39,510 nt of DNA, taken from NCBI GenBank assembly GCA_025774805.1, contig JALGZR010000018.1, positions 1 to 39,510 on the forward strand, read 5' to 3'. The notes under the pieces are model-generated. The model did not search any database. It was not told where the DNA came from and was given only the letters and a program-made list of their open reading frames with translations. Positions 7,691-27,696 of the stretch are shown in pieces; the first letter of the stretch is position 1; every line of letters begins with the position of its first letter. This DNA comes from a bacterium (GTDB lineage: Bacteria; ARS69). The translations under genes and the position numbers were made by a program.

Positions 7691-7756
7691 GCCTGTATTT
7701 CTCACCAGGCTCGTCGCGAGGCGCTGCCGCAGCAGAGTCTGGTGAGATATGCAGGC
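7691..7756. repeat. Palindromic repeat, copy A
   Basis: Left arm GCCTGTATTTCTCACCAG from 7691; the complement of the right arm (ending at 7756) is GCCTGCATATCTCACCAG. A loop of about 30 bases separates the arms. It lies in the 177-base gap between the minus-strand glycosyltransferase and the small membrane protein. It belongs to the same family as the elements at 12141, 18583 and 31996. Confidence 0.75.
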
Positions 7757-10964: not shown

Positions 10965-12056
10965 TCAGCCCTCCACTTCGTCCAGCGCCTCGCCGAGCCT
11001 TCGCAGAGCCTCCCGCACGACGTTCTCACTTCGACCGAAGCAGATTCGCACCCACCCCGGCCGATCGAAGTGCTCTCCCTCGGCGACGTTCACCCCGCGC
11101 TCCTCCCGCAGTCGCGCCGCGAACGTCGCCGTGTCGGCCACGCGGCGCAGGCGGAGAAACGCCGTCACGCCGCCGTCGGGAGGCGTCCACTCGACGTCCT
11201 TGCGGCCGGCGACCCACTCCTCCGCGATGGCGTGACCGCGGGCCGCGATGTCGCGGGACCGCCTTCGAAAACGCTCCAGATCCCGGATCACCTTGACGGC
11301 GGTCGCCTGGGAGAGATGCGACCCGTCCACCGCGAGGTAGAGGGAGAGCTCTTTCATCGGTCGGAGGATGTCGGGGGCGCCGATCACCCACCCCACCCGG
11401 AGCCCGCCGAAGCCGTAGACCTTCGTGAGGCTTCCCGTCGTGACGAAGCGATCCGAGATCGCATGCGCCGGACGCGGATCGTCCGCGAAGTCGAGGTAGA
11501 CCTCGTCGGAGTGAACGAGGAAGTCCCACTCCTCGGCGATGGCGGCCAGGCGCTCCAGAAACCGGGGCGGGACGTCGACCCCCGTCGGATTGTGCAGTCG
11601 GGTCAGCACGACCGCCGCCACCGGATCGGGCGACTCGTCGCAGCGGCGAAGGATCTCCTCCGGGTCGGGAGCCCATCCGTTCTCCGGACGCCGGGCGAAG
11701 CGGGCCACGCTCGCCCCGAGAAAGGCGGGAATCTGCGCGAGCACCGGGTATGTCGGGTCCTCGACGAGGATCCGGCGTCCCGCGGCCGCCACGGTGGCGA
11801 GCACCGTAAAGTTCGCGAGGCTCGTGCCGTCCGATACGAGCACCCGCTCGGCCTCCACCCCGTGGGCGTCCGCGATCACCTCCCGCAGGGGGGCGGCGCC
11901 GTAGTAGTTCGGGCCGGTGTAGGGGGACGGGACGGGGGGAACCTCTTCCAGGGACGGCGAGGGGACCGCGCTCGCCCCCAGGCACCAGGGCACACGGTAC
12001 GTCCACCGCTTCGCCCAGTGCATGAACTCGAACGGCTCGGGGTCTCGAAGGTACAT
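10965..12056 (-). CDS. Class I/II PLP-dependent aminotransferase
   Basis: A 363-residue fold-type I aminotransferase. Visible landmarks are HNPTG at about residues 155-159 (Asn binds the PLP ring), SDEVY at 183-187 (Asp/Tyr contacts), GSLTKVYGFGGLRVGW with Lys212 as the Schiff-base lysine, and the C-terminal VRICFG region with the substrate-carboxylate arginine. The substrate cannot be told from sequence. The ATG at 12056 (MYLRDPE) has GAGG five bases before it; a GTG at 12095 is an in-frame alternative. The frame stays open to 12257, but that part translates an arm of the palindromic repeat and is unlikely to be protein. Confidence 0.85.
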   Translation of the reverse strand: MYLRDPEPFEFMHWAKRWTYRVPWCLGASAVPSPSLEEVPPVPSPYTGPNYYGAAPLREVIADAHGVEAERVLVSDGTSLANFTVLATVAAAGRRILVEDPTYPVLAQIPAFLGASVARFARRPENGWAPDPEEILRRCDESPDPVAAVVLTRLHNPTGVDVPPRFLERLAAIAEEWDFLVHSDEVYLDFADDPRPAHAISDRFVTTGSLTKVYGFGGLRVGWVIGAPDILRPMKELSLYLAVDGSHLSQATAVKVIRDLERFRRRSRDIAARGHAIAEEWVAGRKDVEWTPPDGGVTAFLRLRRVADTATFAARLREERGVNVAEGEHFDRPGWVRICFGRSENVVREALRRLGEALDEVEG

Positions 12057-12140
12057 GTTCGCCTCGTCGGGTGGGAGAGCGGCCGGCCCCGGCACCCCGG
12101 CCGGCCTCGATGCTTCCGCCGCGCCCCGGCCGAGACCCTG

Positions 12141-12317
12141 GCTTGCGTTTCTCACCAGGCTCTGCTGCGGCCGCGGCTCGCCGCGCCTGGCTTCGTCGCT
12201 GGCGCGCTTCCCCCCTGCGACGGGGCTACGGCCCCGCCTCGGGTGAAAGCACCCCACCTCCTCGCCAGGCCCGACGATCCATTGCCTCGCGACGAGCCTG
12301 GCGAGAAACGCAGGCTA
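12141..12317. repeat. Palindromic repeat, copy B, with a long insert between the arms
   Basis: Left arm GCTTGCGTTTCTCACCAG begins at 12141. The complement of the right arm, ending at 12317, reads TAGCCTGCGTTTCTCGCCAG. About 120 GC-rich bases lie between the arms, far more than in the other copies. It occupies most of the divergent spacer between the aminotransferase (minus) and the selenoprotein (plus). Confidence 0.7.
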
Positions 12318-12353
12318 CGCGGAGTTGCTGACCGGGTCCATTTCGATCATCTT

Positions 12354-12371
12354 GGGGGAGCGCTATCCCCC
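12354..12371 (+). other. Hairpin upstream of the selenoprotein gene
   Basis: GGGGGA-GCGCTA-TCCCCC forms a perfect six-pair stem about 70 bases before the selenoprotein ATG. It could be a 5' leader structure or an attenuator. There is no T tract, so a simple terminator is less likely. Confidence 0.3.
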
Positions 12372-12441
12372 GCAGGCATCCGTCGTTCGCCCGCGGGCCG
12401 GACGACGGCCCCGGCCCCGGGGAGACCACGTGGAGGAATCG

Positions 12442-12675
12442 ATGCACGTTTCCATCAAGTTCTGCCAGGCCTGAAACTACGACCCCATCGCCGCCAGTCT
12501 GGCGGAAGCCATCCAGAAGGAGTTCGGCGTCCAGTCGGAGCTCATCGCGAGCAGCGGTGGCGTCTTCGACGTGAAGGTGGACGGCCGGCTGATCTACTCC
12601 AAGGACGAGACGGGCCGCCACATCCGTGACAACGAAGAGGTCCTCGACCTCATCCGAAAGCTGCCCACGTCCTGA
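12442..12675 (+). CDS. SelW/Rdx-family selenoprotein with an in-frame TGA (Sec11)
   Basis: Reading through the TGA at 12472-12474 gives a 77-residue protein that matches the Rdx thioredoxin-like family (SelW, SelT, SelH). A first beta strand leads into the redox motif Cys8-Gln-Ala-Sec11 (CXXU), followed by NY, a helix (IAASLAEAIQKEF) and the family's second hallmark, GGVFDV..DGRLIYSK. GGAGG sits six bases before the ATG. A perfect six-pair hairpin with loop GUC starts 16 bases after the TGA, as needed for a bacterial SECIS. Such proteins are thought to act in thiol redox control in the cytoplasm. No selA, selB, selC or selD is in the window. Conventional gene callers stop at the TGA and miss it. 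It is convergent with the Omp85-like gene, 13 bases away. Confidence 0.88.
12491..12505 (+). promoter_or_regulatory. Bacterial SECIS hairpin
   Basis: CCGCCA-GTC-TGGCGG is a perfect stem of six pairs with a three-base loop starting with G. The loop begins 22 bases after the TGA. Known bacterial SECIS elements have a short apical loop with a G among its first two bases, placed about 16-37 bases after the UGA, and are bound by SelB. All three conditions are met. Confidence 0.78.
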
Positions 12676-12688
12676 GCCGACGGTCGAG

Positions 12689-14053
12689 TCACCGCTTCTG
12701 GGTGAGCAGCAGCCGGTACGTCCAGTCGTCACCATCCCGATCGAGCCGCCGGGCGATGTCCAGCCGCAGCTCCCCGACCCCGCCGGGGATGCCGAGCAGG
12801 TTGCGCTGCAGACCGATCCCCGCGCTGGAGCGGACGTCCGGATCGTCGAGCTCCCGGGTACCGCCGTCGGGGGCCTGCGTCTCGAAGATCGCGGCCGCGT
12901 CGGCGAAGGGCACCGCCTGGAAGCGCAGGACACGCAAGTAGGGAACGTGGCCGAGCAGGTCGGTTCCGATCGTGTAGTCCAGCCGGGCGTGGGCGAAGCG
13001 CCGAGCGGGAAACTCGTTCACCTCGTAGCCGCGAAGCGTTTGAAAGCCGCCGAGGTGGTGGAGCGCCTGGAAGGGCGCGTCGCCCGTCACCTGGCCCGCG
13101 CGCAGGTCGAGGGTGGCGAGATCGCCGAACCAGAGTCCGCGCCGCCCGACGACCCGGGCGGCGAGGGACTCGTAGCGGAAGTCCCCGCCGAGCTCGCCAC
13201 CGGCCACGGATCCCAGGAGGCTCGCCGCGAAGCGGGAAGTCCTCGGCTCGCCGTAGCCGAGATCGATCTCGACGAGACGGGCCTTCCCCGGATCGATCGC
13301 GGGATTCGCCCGGAAGTGGGACTCCCGCTCGAAGAGCGAGAAGTCGGTGGCGGGGGTAACGGACTCCTGCCTCTCGCGTCGGTACGAGAGCCCGATTCGA
13401 AACGGTTCGGGTCGAGATTGCAGCGACGCGCTCCACCCCTCGCCCCGGAAGTAGTCTCCGTAGTCCCGGCCGAAGAAGAGGGCGGCGATCGTGTTGCCGA
13501 GAAAGCTTCCGGATCCGTACGAGTAGACGTCCCGGGCGTGGGCGAGCTCGAACGTGGGCCGACCGCCCCCATTCCCGAGCCGAGCGCGGATCCCGGCGCG
13601 CCACGTCGCCTCGTCCGCGGCCCAGCCCCAGCCGAAACTGCCGAAGAGCGTGAGCGCCGGCCGGCTGGGCGCGTCCAGCTGGAAGCCGGGCATGACGTTG
13701 AGCCCCTCCACCCGGTTGTACCGTACGGCGGAGACGTCGAAGTCGAGATCCCACTTCTGCGGGACAGGATCGTACGGAGATTCCCCGGACCCCTCCCAGA
13801 CGCGCATGAGGCTGTCGACCTCGGCGTCCGAGATCGTGAGCGCCTCGAGCCCGAACGACTCGTCGGTGCGCAGCTCGAGCTCGCCGAGGTACTCGACGAG
13901 CGGATCGGAGGCGATCGAGTCCGCTCCGGCGTTCGCGGGGGGAGGGGGCTCGGCCTCTCCGCCGACCGGCTCGCTGCGCGCCGCCGTGACACCGAGTCCG
14001 AGAGCCCCCCACAGCGCGAGAAGAGGGAGAGTCCGCGCGATTCTCCGACTCAC
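12689..14053 (-). CDS. Omp85/BamA-like outer-membrane beta-barrel protein
   Basis: A 454-residue protein. Residues 1-25 form a signal peptide (RIARTLPLLALWGALGLG..A), followed by a Pro/Glu-rich linker. From about residue 90 on the sequence is a long run of alternating amphipathic strands ending in a charged C-terminal strand. The C-terminal third contains HHLGGFQTLRGYE, matching the (V/L)RG(Y/F) motif of loop 6 in Omp85-superfamily barrels, followed by FADAAAIFE and a G.GL strand. No POTRA domains are visible. The GTG at 14053 overlaps the stop of the LolA-like gene (GTGA), so translation is coupled. A role in outer-membrane assembly or lipid handling is inferred from the family and the partner. 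Confidence 0.75.
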   Translation of the reverse strand: MSRRIARTLPLLALWGALGLGVTAARSEPVGGEAEPPPPANAGADSIASDPLVEYLGELELRTDESFGLEALTISDAEVDSLMRVWEGSGESPYDPVPQKWDLDFDVSAVRYNRVEGLNVMPGFQLDAPSRPALTLFGSFGWGWAADEATWRAGIRARLGNGGGRPTFELAHARDVYSYGSGSFLGNTIAALFFGRDYGDYFRGEGWSASLQSRPEPFRIGLSYRRERQESVTPATDFSLFERESHFRANPAIDPGKARLVEIDLGYGEPRTSRFAASLLGSVAGGELGGDFRYESLAARVVGRRGLWFGDLATLDLRAGQVTGDAPFQALHHLGGFQTLRGYEVNEFPARRFAHARLDYTIGTDLLGHVPYLRVLRFQAVPFADAAAIFETQAPDGGTRELDDPDVRSSAGIGLQRNLLGIPGGVGELRLDIARRLDRDGDDWTYRLLLTQKR

Positions 14054-15021
14054 GGTCCCGACTCCCGTTCCGGCGTCGGATTCGCCCGCCCGCCGTCGTC
14101 CGCCGGGCCGCCGGCCGGCTCGTTGACACGAAAGTCCCGGAAGTTCACGACGAACTCCACCACGTCGGGAATGTCCCGGTCGAACATCTTCAAGAGCCCG
14201 GTCCGCACGTCGACCCGAATGAGGAACCGCTTCCACACCCAGACGTCTCCGATCCGGACCCGCTCCCGTATGAACGGACCGATCGACTTCACGAACATCG
14301 GGAGTGGCACTCGGTCTTCGAAGTCGAACTCCTCCCGCAGGATCTGGAAGGTCGACGCGTCGACCCAGATCTTCCCCTCGGGTGCGATCGCGAAGTCGGA
14401 CTTCGGCTCGAGCTGCACCTCGTACAGCACGCGTTGGCCGACGATCTCCCGGGACAGGATCCGGAAGTCGTACTGATCGCGATCCTCGAGATAGAAGGGG
14501 AGCGAGGAGAGCCCCCCGTACGTGATCTTCACCGAGGGATCCTCGTCCTCCGGCCACTCCTTCCTCTCTCCGTCGACCACTCGATACTTTTCGAGCTTCA
14601 GGGGGACGGTCTTCTCGAAATCCGGCTTGCGGAAGATCTGCCGATCCGCCTGCTCCGCCACCCACTTCTCGCGGGCCCGATCTCCGTAGCCCCCCACATG
14701 ATAGACCTGCTTGACGATGACCGTCTGTTCCAGCGACTCGATGCGCTCCCGGATCGCCTCTTCCCGCTCGATGCAACGCTTCACGATGTCCCCGATCTTC
14801 AATCGGTCGGCGCGGACCTCCAGCGGGGACATCTCGAAGAACGCGGGGATCTCCAGCGTGTCCTCCAGCGCGAAGATGTATCGGGGGATCCGGATCTCGG
14901 GGAGAGTGTCGGGAGGAGATGCCTCGTCGCGGGGGGGATCCTGGCCACGTGCCGTCTTCATCGGGGCGATCAGAGCGAACGCAGATGCGACCACGACCGC
15001 CCCGGCGGGGCCCTTCCCCAC
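14050..15021 (-). CDS. LolA-like exported protein
   Basis: A 323-residue protein. The GTG at 15021 was chosen because it begins a good signal peptide (GPAGAVVVASAFALIAP, cleavage near ARG-Q); the frame is open upstream to 15186, but that part is Arg-rich and unlike protein. The mature part shows a LolA/LppX-like half-barrel pattern of amphipathic strands: YDFRILSREIVGQRVLYEVQ, then GKIWVDASTFQILREEFDFE, and FLIRVDVRTGLLKM. In this superfamily the fold carries lipids or lipoproteins across the periplasm. The stop overlaps the start of the Omp85-like barrel, so a periplasm-to-outer-membrane pair is likely. The ribosome binding site is weak. Confidence 0.65.
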   Translation of the reverse strand: MGKGPAGAVVVASAFALIAPMKTARGQDPPRDEASPPDTLPEIRIPRYIFALEDTLEIPAFFEMSPLEVRADRLKIGDIVKRCIEREEAIRERIESLEQTVIVKQVYHVGGYGDRAREKWVAEQADRQIFRKPDFEKTVPLKLEKYRVVDGERKEWPEDEDPSVKITYGGLSSLPFYLEDRDQYDFRILSREIVGQRVLYEVQLEPKSDFAIAPEGKIWVDASTFQILREEFDFEDRVPLPMFVKSIGPFIRERVRIGDVWVWKRFLIRVDVRTGLLKMFDRDIPDVVEFVVNFRDFRVNEPAGGPADDGGRANPTPERESGP

Positions 15022-25450: not shown

Positions 25451-26581
25451 CTACTCGACGCCCAAGAGCTCCACGTCGAAGACCAGGGTCGCGTTCGGTG
25501 GAATCCGGCCTCCGCCCGCACCGCGGGCGCCGTAGCCCAGCTCCGACGGGATGAACAGCACCCGCTTCTCCCCGACCTGCATGTCGAGGAAGGCGATGTC
25601 CCAGCCCTTGATGACGCGCTGGACTCCGATGGGAGTCTTGAACGGAGTGCCCCGGTCCACGCTGGAGTCGAACTTGGTCCCGTCCAGCAAATAGCCCGTG
25701 TAGTGGGCGGTGATCGTCTGCCCGGTCGAGGGCTTCGCCCCGGTTCCCTCCTGGCGCACGACGTACTCGAGGCCCTCTTCCGTCCTCTTTAGGCTCGCGA
25801 GGTCGATCCCGAGCTCCTTGGCGATCTCGACCCTGTCCGTAGCCTCTCTCTCCTCCTTCTCGCGCTTCATCCGCGCGACGATCTCCTCCTGGCGGTCGAA
25901 GCTCGCCTTCCAGTCGAACGCGGCCGCCGCACTCCCCGTCCGGACGATCCGGGCCTTCTCGATGACGATGTCGTCGGCCGGAGTCGAATTCTGGGGCCCC
26001 TTCATCGGTACACCGGCCATTTCGCTCACGACGTCGATTCCGTGCACGCACTGTCCGAAGACCGTGTGCTTGTCATCGAGCCAGGGGGTCGGGCCGTGGG
26101 TGATGAAGAACTGGCTGCCGTTCGAGTTCGGGCCCGAGTTCGCCATCGAAAGGACGCCCGGCTTGTCGTGGCGCAGACTCTCGACGAACTCGTCGGTGAA
26201 GGAGTACCCGGGGCCTCCCCGGCCGTTGCCCAGCGGACACCCTCCTTGAATCATGAAGTCCTTGTTCACGCGGTGGATCGTCAGGCCGTCGTAGAAGGGG
26301 CGCTGCACCATCTCTCCCGTCTGCGGATCCCGCCATTCCTTCTCGCCGGTGACGAGGCCGGTGAAGTTTCCGACCGTCACCGGGACCTGCTCGGCGAACA
26401 GCTCACAGACGATCGTCCCCAAGGTTGTCTCGAAGACGACGTAGAGGCCGTCCTCCTTCGTAGCTTCGCTCACGGCATCGTCCTCCGCGGTCTCGCCGCT
26501 CGACCAGACCGCGAGCAGGCCGATCAGGACGGCTGGCAGGACGGCACGAGGGAGAGTGCGCTTCGGTAGAATAGTGACCAT
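25451..26581 (-). CDS. Cyclophilin-FKBP fusion peptidyl-prolyl isomerase
   Basis: A 376-residue exported protein with two different prolyl isomerase domains. Residues 1-30 form a signal segment. Residues about 46-215 are a cyclophilin: FYDGLTIHRVNKDFMIQGG (active-site Arg104, Phe109, Gln112), MANSGPNSNGSQFFIT, Trp167 and His172. A charged helical linker (about 222-262) follows. Residues 263-376 are an FKBP: YTGYLLDGTKFDSS (Tyr294, Phe304, Asp305), VIKGWD (Val323, Ile324, Trp327), ELGYGARG (Tyr350) and an IPPNATLVFDVELL end. All named catalytic pocket residues are present in both, so both should be active. GAGGAAACCG precedes the ATG. A role in folding periplasmic proteins is inferred. Confidence 0.92.
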   Translation of the reverse strand: MVTILPKRTLPRAVLPAVLIGLLAVWSSGETAEDDAVSEATKEDGLYVVFETTLGTIVCELFAEQVPVTVGNFTGLVTGEKEWRDPQTGEMVQRPFYDGLTIHRVNKDFMIQGGCPLGNGRGGPGYSFTDEFVESLRHDKPGVLSMANSGPNSNGSQFFITHGPTPWLDDKHTVFGQCVHGIDVVSEMAGVPMKGPQNSTPADDIVIEKARIVRTGSAAAAFDWKASFDRQEEIVARMKREKEEREATDRVEIAKELGIDLASLKRTEEGLEYVVRQEGTGAKPSTGQTITAHYTGYLLDGTKFDSSVDRGTPFKTPIGVQRVIKGWDIAFLDMQVGEKRVLFIPSELGYGARGAGGGRIPPNATLVFDVELLGVE

Positions 26582-26656
26582 CGGTTTCCTCGACTGGAAC
26601 GGGATGAGTGGATCCGAGCAGCCGCCGGCGTCCGTCGTTCCGGCGGGAGGTCGGAC

Positions 26657-26662
26657 ATTCTA
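26657..26662 (-). promoter_or_regulatory. -10-like TAGAAT before the immunophilin gene
   Basis: TAGAAT lies 75 bases upstream of the immunophilin ATG on the minus strand. The following bases GTCC match those after the hexamer at 7636. The -35 is weak. Confidence 0.3.
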
Positions 26663-26682
26663 AGGGCCGCGGAGCGGATTGG

Positions 26683-27627
26683 CTACGATTCGATCCGGAT
26701 CCCCGATTCCTCCGGGATCGCGCCGAGAATCGATCCCTCCCGATCCTCTTCGGTCTCGGGAGGAGGCGCCGTCGGGAGATCTCCGATCCGCGTCTCGAGG
26801 TCGGGAAGGGCGGGGATGGGGATCGACCCCTCGTTTGCCCCCCGGACCCTCACCCCGCTGCGGGGAAGGACGGCGTCTCCCTTCACCGAGCTCTCGAACA
26901 CGAGCTCGGCGGTGCCGGCCGGCGCCCTTCGAAACGACGTGCGCTCCCGACGGCGGGGAGGAAGTGCGACCTCCCACGGGCGGAGCCCCTCGGCGGTGCG
27001 GATCCCCAGAATCGTCACGACGGACCCTCCCCGGTTGAACAGCTCGAGCCCGTCGTCGTTCCAGAGGATCTCGAGGTCCGCGCCGGACATCTTTCCCGGA
27101 CAGAGGGGGAACGACGTCTCGGCGGGCAGGACGGCGTCGGCGAGAGCGAGGAATTGGGCGTCGTAGGTCAGGAGGAGTCCGGCGGCGTGCACGCGCCGCG
27201 GTCGGTCGAGCACCTCCACGAGGACTCTTCGTCCGAGGTGCCTTCGCAGAAGAGGCTCCTTCGAGATCGGGTCGCGGTGCAGGAGCTCACGCGACCAGCG
27301 GGCGAGCCGATCCCTCCACGACGGATGCGCGGCTCTCCAGATCTGCTCCTCCCGCCGGATCCGAACCGCGTCGGTCCAGAGGGGTTCCGGTCGGAGGAGA
27401 CATCGGAGCGTGCCGGCCTCCTCGCGGCTGAGCAGCCGGCTCGACTCCACGTATCCCCCGAGGGAACGCGGCTCGTCGTAGGTGATCTCGAGGCCGCCCG
27501 CGAAGACATGGAGGACGCCACGGATCCACTCCCCGTCCCCGTCCTGCCCCTGCACGCAGTCGCCCTCGAAGAGTCGGAGCGGGGAAGTCGCCCACTCGCC
27601 CCGCGGAAACGTCGGTCCCGATCGCAT
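26683..27627 (-). CDS. Hypothetical protein (314 aa)
   Basis: I recognise no family. The ATG at 27627 is preceded by a G-rich GGGGAGGGGAGG ribosome binding region; the frame is open for ten more codons from a GTG at 27657. The chain is soluble, without signal peptide or membrane segments. The N-terminal third is a run of strands (LFEGDCVQGQ, GVLHVFAGGLEITYDE). A helical, Arg/Trp-rich segment lies near residues 90-125, then another strand-rich part ends in an acidic, Pro-rich tail. It lies between the cupin and the immunophilin on the same strand, with gaps of 69 and 101 bases, so cotranscription is possible but not certain. Confidence 0.6.
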   Translation of the reverse strand: MRSGPTFPRGEWATSPLRLFEGDCVQGQDGDGEWIRGVLHVFAGGLEITYDEPRSLGGYVESSRLLSREEAGTLRCLLRPEPLWTDAVRIRREEQIWRAAHPSWRDRLARWSRELLHRDPISKEPLLRRHLGRRVLVEVLDRPRRVHAAGLLLTYDAQFLALADAVLPAETSFPLCPGKMSGADLEILWNDDGLELFNRGGSVVTILGIRTAEGLRPWEVALPPRRRERTSFRRAPAGTAELVFESSVKGDAVLPRSGVRVRGANEGSIPIPALPDLETRIGDLPTAPPPETEEDREGSILGAIPEESGIRIES

Positions 27628-27696
27628 GGCCTCCCCTCCCCACCGAACGCCTATCACCTCGATCCGGCGGATCTTCCGCTCCCGAGGAGGGGATTG

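Follow-up and report, generated by a model that had tools for sequence, protein, structure and literature searches.

The closest described systems are the bacterial SelW-like selenoproteins (PF10262; TIGR02174; NF041051), the largest prokaryotic family listed in ocean data, with 427 Sec-containing and 56 Cys-containing homologues (PMC2398784). The selW gene described here lies in a window of 39,510 nucleotides (the whole stretch of DNA that was analysed) and shares with them its size, the CXXU motif, the GGVFDVKVDG and SK...GR stretches and a SECIS element inside the coding region, with no difference of substance. The Cys-containing Rdx proteins belong by sequence to the same family and supply the relatives of solved structure, 2fa8 (Atu0228), 3dex (SAV_2001) and 2ljk (C17orf37), although in the aligned chains of 2fa8 and 2ljk Cys replaces the Sec of our gene. 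Genomes with an orphan SelD likewise carry an incomplete selenium gene set, but the surveys that treat them (PMC5029168, PMC2276186) describe the reverse case, SelD without SelA and SelB, whereas in the source genome selA, selB and tRNA-Sec stand without selD. SelW-like proteins rank with the most common selenoproteins known from bacteria; the selW gene adds one more, and gene finding based on stop codons can overlook genes of this kind. More unusual is that the genome retains SelA, SelB and tRNA-Sec with at least three likely UGA genes, yet bears a scar at the place where its relatives hold selD; if real, this would offer a natural snapshot of the beginning of Sec trait loss, or of a moved selD.

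We propose that the frame at 12442-12675 is, by descent and sequence, very probably a genuine SelW/Rdx-type selenoprotein gene, because it combines a UGA at the CXXU position, family sequence beyond it, a conserved hairpin and a genome encoding tRNA-Sec, SelA and SelB. From what is established for the family, SelB would bind the hairpin and deliver Sec-tRNA to the UGA, and the product would be a small cytosolic thioredoxin-fold protein acting on its substrates as a Cys/Sec oxidoreductase. Present-day insertion of Sec in the sequenced strain is less sure, since selD was not seen, and we put it at a little better than even.

Reading frame, family and conservation of the UGA

The original prediction had described an open reading frame with a good ribosome binding site, a TGA at codon 11 and a family-typical continuation, and its coordinates, frame and motif are as described (Table 1). 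The redox motif Cys8-Gln-Ala-TGA(11) stands near the N-terminus, the frame continues after the TGA as GGVFDVKVDGRLIYSK, including GGVFDV and DGRLIYSK, and the true stop is a second TGA at 12673-12675. With Cys written for Sec before the profile searches, the Pfam Rdx profile PF10262 matches 72 of the 77 residues (E=1e-16, 61.3 bits against a gathering score of 22.6) and TIGR02174 (CXXU_selWTH) scores 47.6 against a cut-off of 34.2, so that the Rdx match is far beyond chance; NF041051, with the same substitution, gave 80.5, just below its cut-off of 88. Together with the conserved TGA, the two profiles above their cut-offs bear out the predicted SelW/Rdx family and the placing of Sec in the CXXU motif. 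Two long mechanical reading frames, 12226-12933 on the minus strand and 11070-12629 on the plus strand in another frame, cross the gene; they look like artefacts of G+C-rich sequence and could mislead gene callers.

Table 1. Positions of the features discussed, numbered from the first letter of the window
Feature	Position	Strand	Remarks
Class I/II aminotransferase	10965..12257	-	Divergent neighbour of selW, adjoining in three relatives
Shine-Dalgarno GGAGG	12432..12436	+	5 nt before ATG 12442; assigned from sequence
selW/rdx gene	12442..12675	+	77 aa if codon 11 (UGA) gives Sec; CXXU (Cys8, Sec11)
In-frame TGA (putative Sec codon 11)	12472..12474	+	Kept in 3 family relatives and 15 homologues from other phyla
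SECIS upper stem-loop CCGCCA-GUC-UGGCGG	12491..12505	+	Covariation in 5/7 pairs across phyla
Omp85-type outer-membrane protein	12689..14128	-	Converges with selW; 5' limit approximate, mechanical ORF to 15211
Cyclophilin-FKBP peptidyl-prolyl isomerase	25451..26581	-	selD's downstream partner in 4/4 relatives
Apparent selD deletion scar	26582..26730	-	About 71 bp matching the 3' end of selD and its spacer; limits approximate
Gene, family unassigned	26683..27657	-	selD's upstream partner in 4/4 relatives; C-terminus here from selD remnant

The organism's own family comprises five genomes in the collection, and searches at class and phylum level gave the same five and none beyond. Four of them gave a selW gene, every copy with exactly one in-frame TGA; the three relatives concerned (G001, G003 and G004) are about 71-75% identical, the G003 match ending at a contig end, and no selW match was present in G002, a genome 82% complete. 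Scanning 84,980 species genomes brought 15 more homologues, distributed over Planctomycetota, Acidobacteria, Myxococcota, Gemmatimonadetes, Gammaproteobacteria, Chloroflexi and Actinobacteria, and each of them has TGA at the equivalent place. No Cys form of SelW occurred among these 15 and the family relatives, in a scan that favours near relatives, and viral contigs yielded no relatives of the gene. The original prediction was to be given up if the frames of relatives stopped at this TGA with nothing conserved beyond; they continue past it, and the alignment it proposed, with its look for a Cys codon in relatives, gave TGA in all 18 homologues read.

The hairpin downstream of the UGA

The hairpin foreseen at a SelB-type distance, with a loop beginning in G, is present and conserved with covariation. 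Its GUC loop lies 22 nt after the UGA and its energy is -8.6 kcal/mol, which satisfies the bSECIS rule of PMC13188914 (a loop of 3-9 nt with G in the first two loop positions, a spacing of 16-37 nt and an energy of -7.5 or lower). With Rfam, scanned loosely over 12300-12800, there was a chance match only and no bacterial SECIS. Two controls weaken the force of the rule here: among 60 TGAs picked at random from the G+C-rich window 28 also satisfy it, and when the same peptide is recoded synonymously under local codon use, 6.9% of the recodings have a stem at least as long at this place, since the peptide AASLAEA already favours a dyad. Taken singly, the selW hairpin is thus within reach of chance and weak evidence; its weight as a candidate SECIS rests on conservation across phyla and on covariation.

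Both were followed in an ungapped alignment of 14 sequences over seven stem pairs, in which the hairpin occupies the identical 22-nt place in 13 sequences (for example GCUACCGGUCUGGUAGC in L038 and GGCGACGGGUCUCGUCGCC in L039) and 94.9% of the cells are paired. In five of the seven pairs both partners have changed, where shuffling gave a mean of 1.0 and none of 500 shuffles reached five, and sliding the partner strand by 1-3 bases leaves only 20-60% pairing; this covariation is what would be expected of a hairpin under selection. Most rows have AGT or GGT as their loop codon, although both are a small minority here (AGT 13 of 352 Ser codons, GGT 56 of 679 Gly codons). The five most distant homologues (L040-L044) also have hairpins that satisfy the bSECIS rule, at other spacings.

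Selenocysteine machinery and the vacant selD slot

The source assembly is a 5.1 Mb draft in 284 contigs, 96.3% complete with an estimated contamination of 5.06%. It encodes a tRNA-Sec (72 bits; called SeC by ARAGORN, anticodon TCA) downstream of glmS, a position shared with the relatives, and the tRNA is found in all five family genomes at 72-75 bits; in the source genome its variable arm seems to have undergone a C-G for U-A exchange, as expected if it were still under selection. An RF01852 match on contig C268 proved to be a tRNA-Leu, and a second tRNA-Sec was rejected. A tRNA search of the 39.5-kb window found none, and a promoter scan gave no promoter. selA (536 bits) and selB (383 bits) have the expected domains and no internal stops, and binning places them in the same organism as the window. 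The absence of selABCD and tRNA-Sec, named at the outset as fatal to the prediction, is thus contradicted by selA, selB and tRNA-Sec. The broader claim that the organism makes selenocysteine stands in part: these three components are there, but selD was not found in the assembly and its slot holds a scar.

Two further genes of the source genome, L063 (G000:C261:36162) and L064 (G000:C262:26317), are likely UGA-containing selenoproteins. They are paralogues, 64% identical, in which TGA replaces the first Cys of the redoxin CxxC (GANW-U-PIC, UxxC), and each has a strong hairpin 17 nt downstream of the TGA. Both are multidomain, with a HYDIN/ASH-type Ig domain, an AhpC/TSA redoxin domain carrying the UGA and a FlgD-Ig C-terminus. 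Among the matches listed there were no relatives of the redoxin part, and the two are probably secreted selenoproteins particular to the source lineage.

The profile TIGR00476 finds selD in all four relatives at 353-372 bits and gives only a 20-bit match in the source genome, where a search with a relative's SelD protein likewise brings no match (E up to 10). The selD of each of the four relatives is flanked by the cyclophilin-FKBP gene and by a homologue of the gene at 26683-27657, and the G001 and G004 loci also show further neighbours. The relatives' selD genes (L023, L024, L025 and L026, in G001-G004) carry one in-frame TGA each, for which reason SelD is there a predicted selenoprotein itself. 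In the window the two flanking genes are 101 bp apart, and the DNA running from the 3' end of the one at 26683-27657 into this spacer aligns with the 3' end of the G004 selD with a score of 67, against a maximum of 32 in 300 shuffles. The remnant has become fused to that gene, whose C-terminus (...GAIPEESGIRIES) resembles the end of the G004 SelD (...GGITDSPGIRIEP), and the remainder of selD is absent. As the remnant matches the selD 3' end and the gene's upstream portion still matches the gene's own homologue, about 1 kb appears to have been deleted, removing the end of this gene and almost the whole of selD. This holds for the assembly, which as a draft may lack a selD carried by the cell.

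With selD gone from its ancestral place, Sec synthesis would need a copy outside the assembly; alternatively, synthesis may recently have ceased, the UGA now ending a 10-residue peptide. The intact selA, selB and tRNA-Sec, together with three UGA genes, argue for selD elsewhere or a very recent loss. Both are sub-cases of a genuine selenoprotein gene and differ only in the present behaviour of the strain. We incline slightly to the first, that selD persists, moved or duplicated outside the assembly, or missing here through strain variation or assembly error, with Sec synthesis intact. All other Sec parts are intact, the genome is split into 284 contigs, and the two Sec-redoxins have diverged to 64% identity with UGA and hairpin both kept, which points to long use of Sec in the lineage. 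Against this, at 96.3% completeness a random gene is usually present, and the remnant joins cleanly within a contig of 39.5 kb whose gene order is conserved on both sides. The second, that the trait is in early decay, we consider a serious but less probable possibility: selD would have been deleted recently, no Sec-tRNA would be made, the selW UGA would act as a stop, and selA, selB, tRNA-Sec and the selenoprotein genes would be relics still undegenerated. The scar in the syntenic slot speaks for it, as does the lack of selD in 5.1 Mb where the same search detects the gene in 4/4 relatives; yet selA, selB, tRNA-Sec, SelW and the two Sec-redoxins are without decay, and an assembly about 96% complete may lack a moved copy. 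That the UGA is decoded as Sec without a recognisable SelD, another, not yet identified enzyme providing selenophosphate or an equivalent donor, seems very unlikely.

A genuine selenoprotein gene also has to be weighed against readings in which the UGA does not specify Sec. TGA is a common stop codon in the source genome, but to take the selW TGA for an ordinary stop, or for a pseudogene's point mutation, is extremely improbable and was rejected: all 18 homologues read share this TGA, which refutes the reading, and the protein beyond it is conserved, as the Rdx match shows. A UGA read as Trp or another residue through a code change or suppressor is scarcely credible and was likewise rejected, since TGA terminates 8 of the 16 counted genes of the window and the genome encodes SelB together with a dedicated tRNA-Sec.

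Gene order and repeats around selW

Gene order around selW is conserved in the relatives. The window also contains imperfect inverted repeats with the core GCGTTTCTCRCCAGGC, at 12141-12162 and 12294-12315 as well as at 7695, 7737, 18589 and 18614; they stand mostly in opposed pairs, with 7 matches to the core against 1.2 expected in the window, and are possibly members of a dispersed palindromic repeat family.
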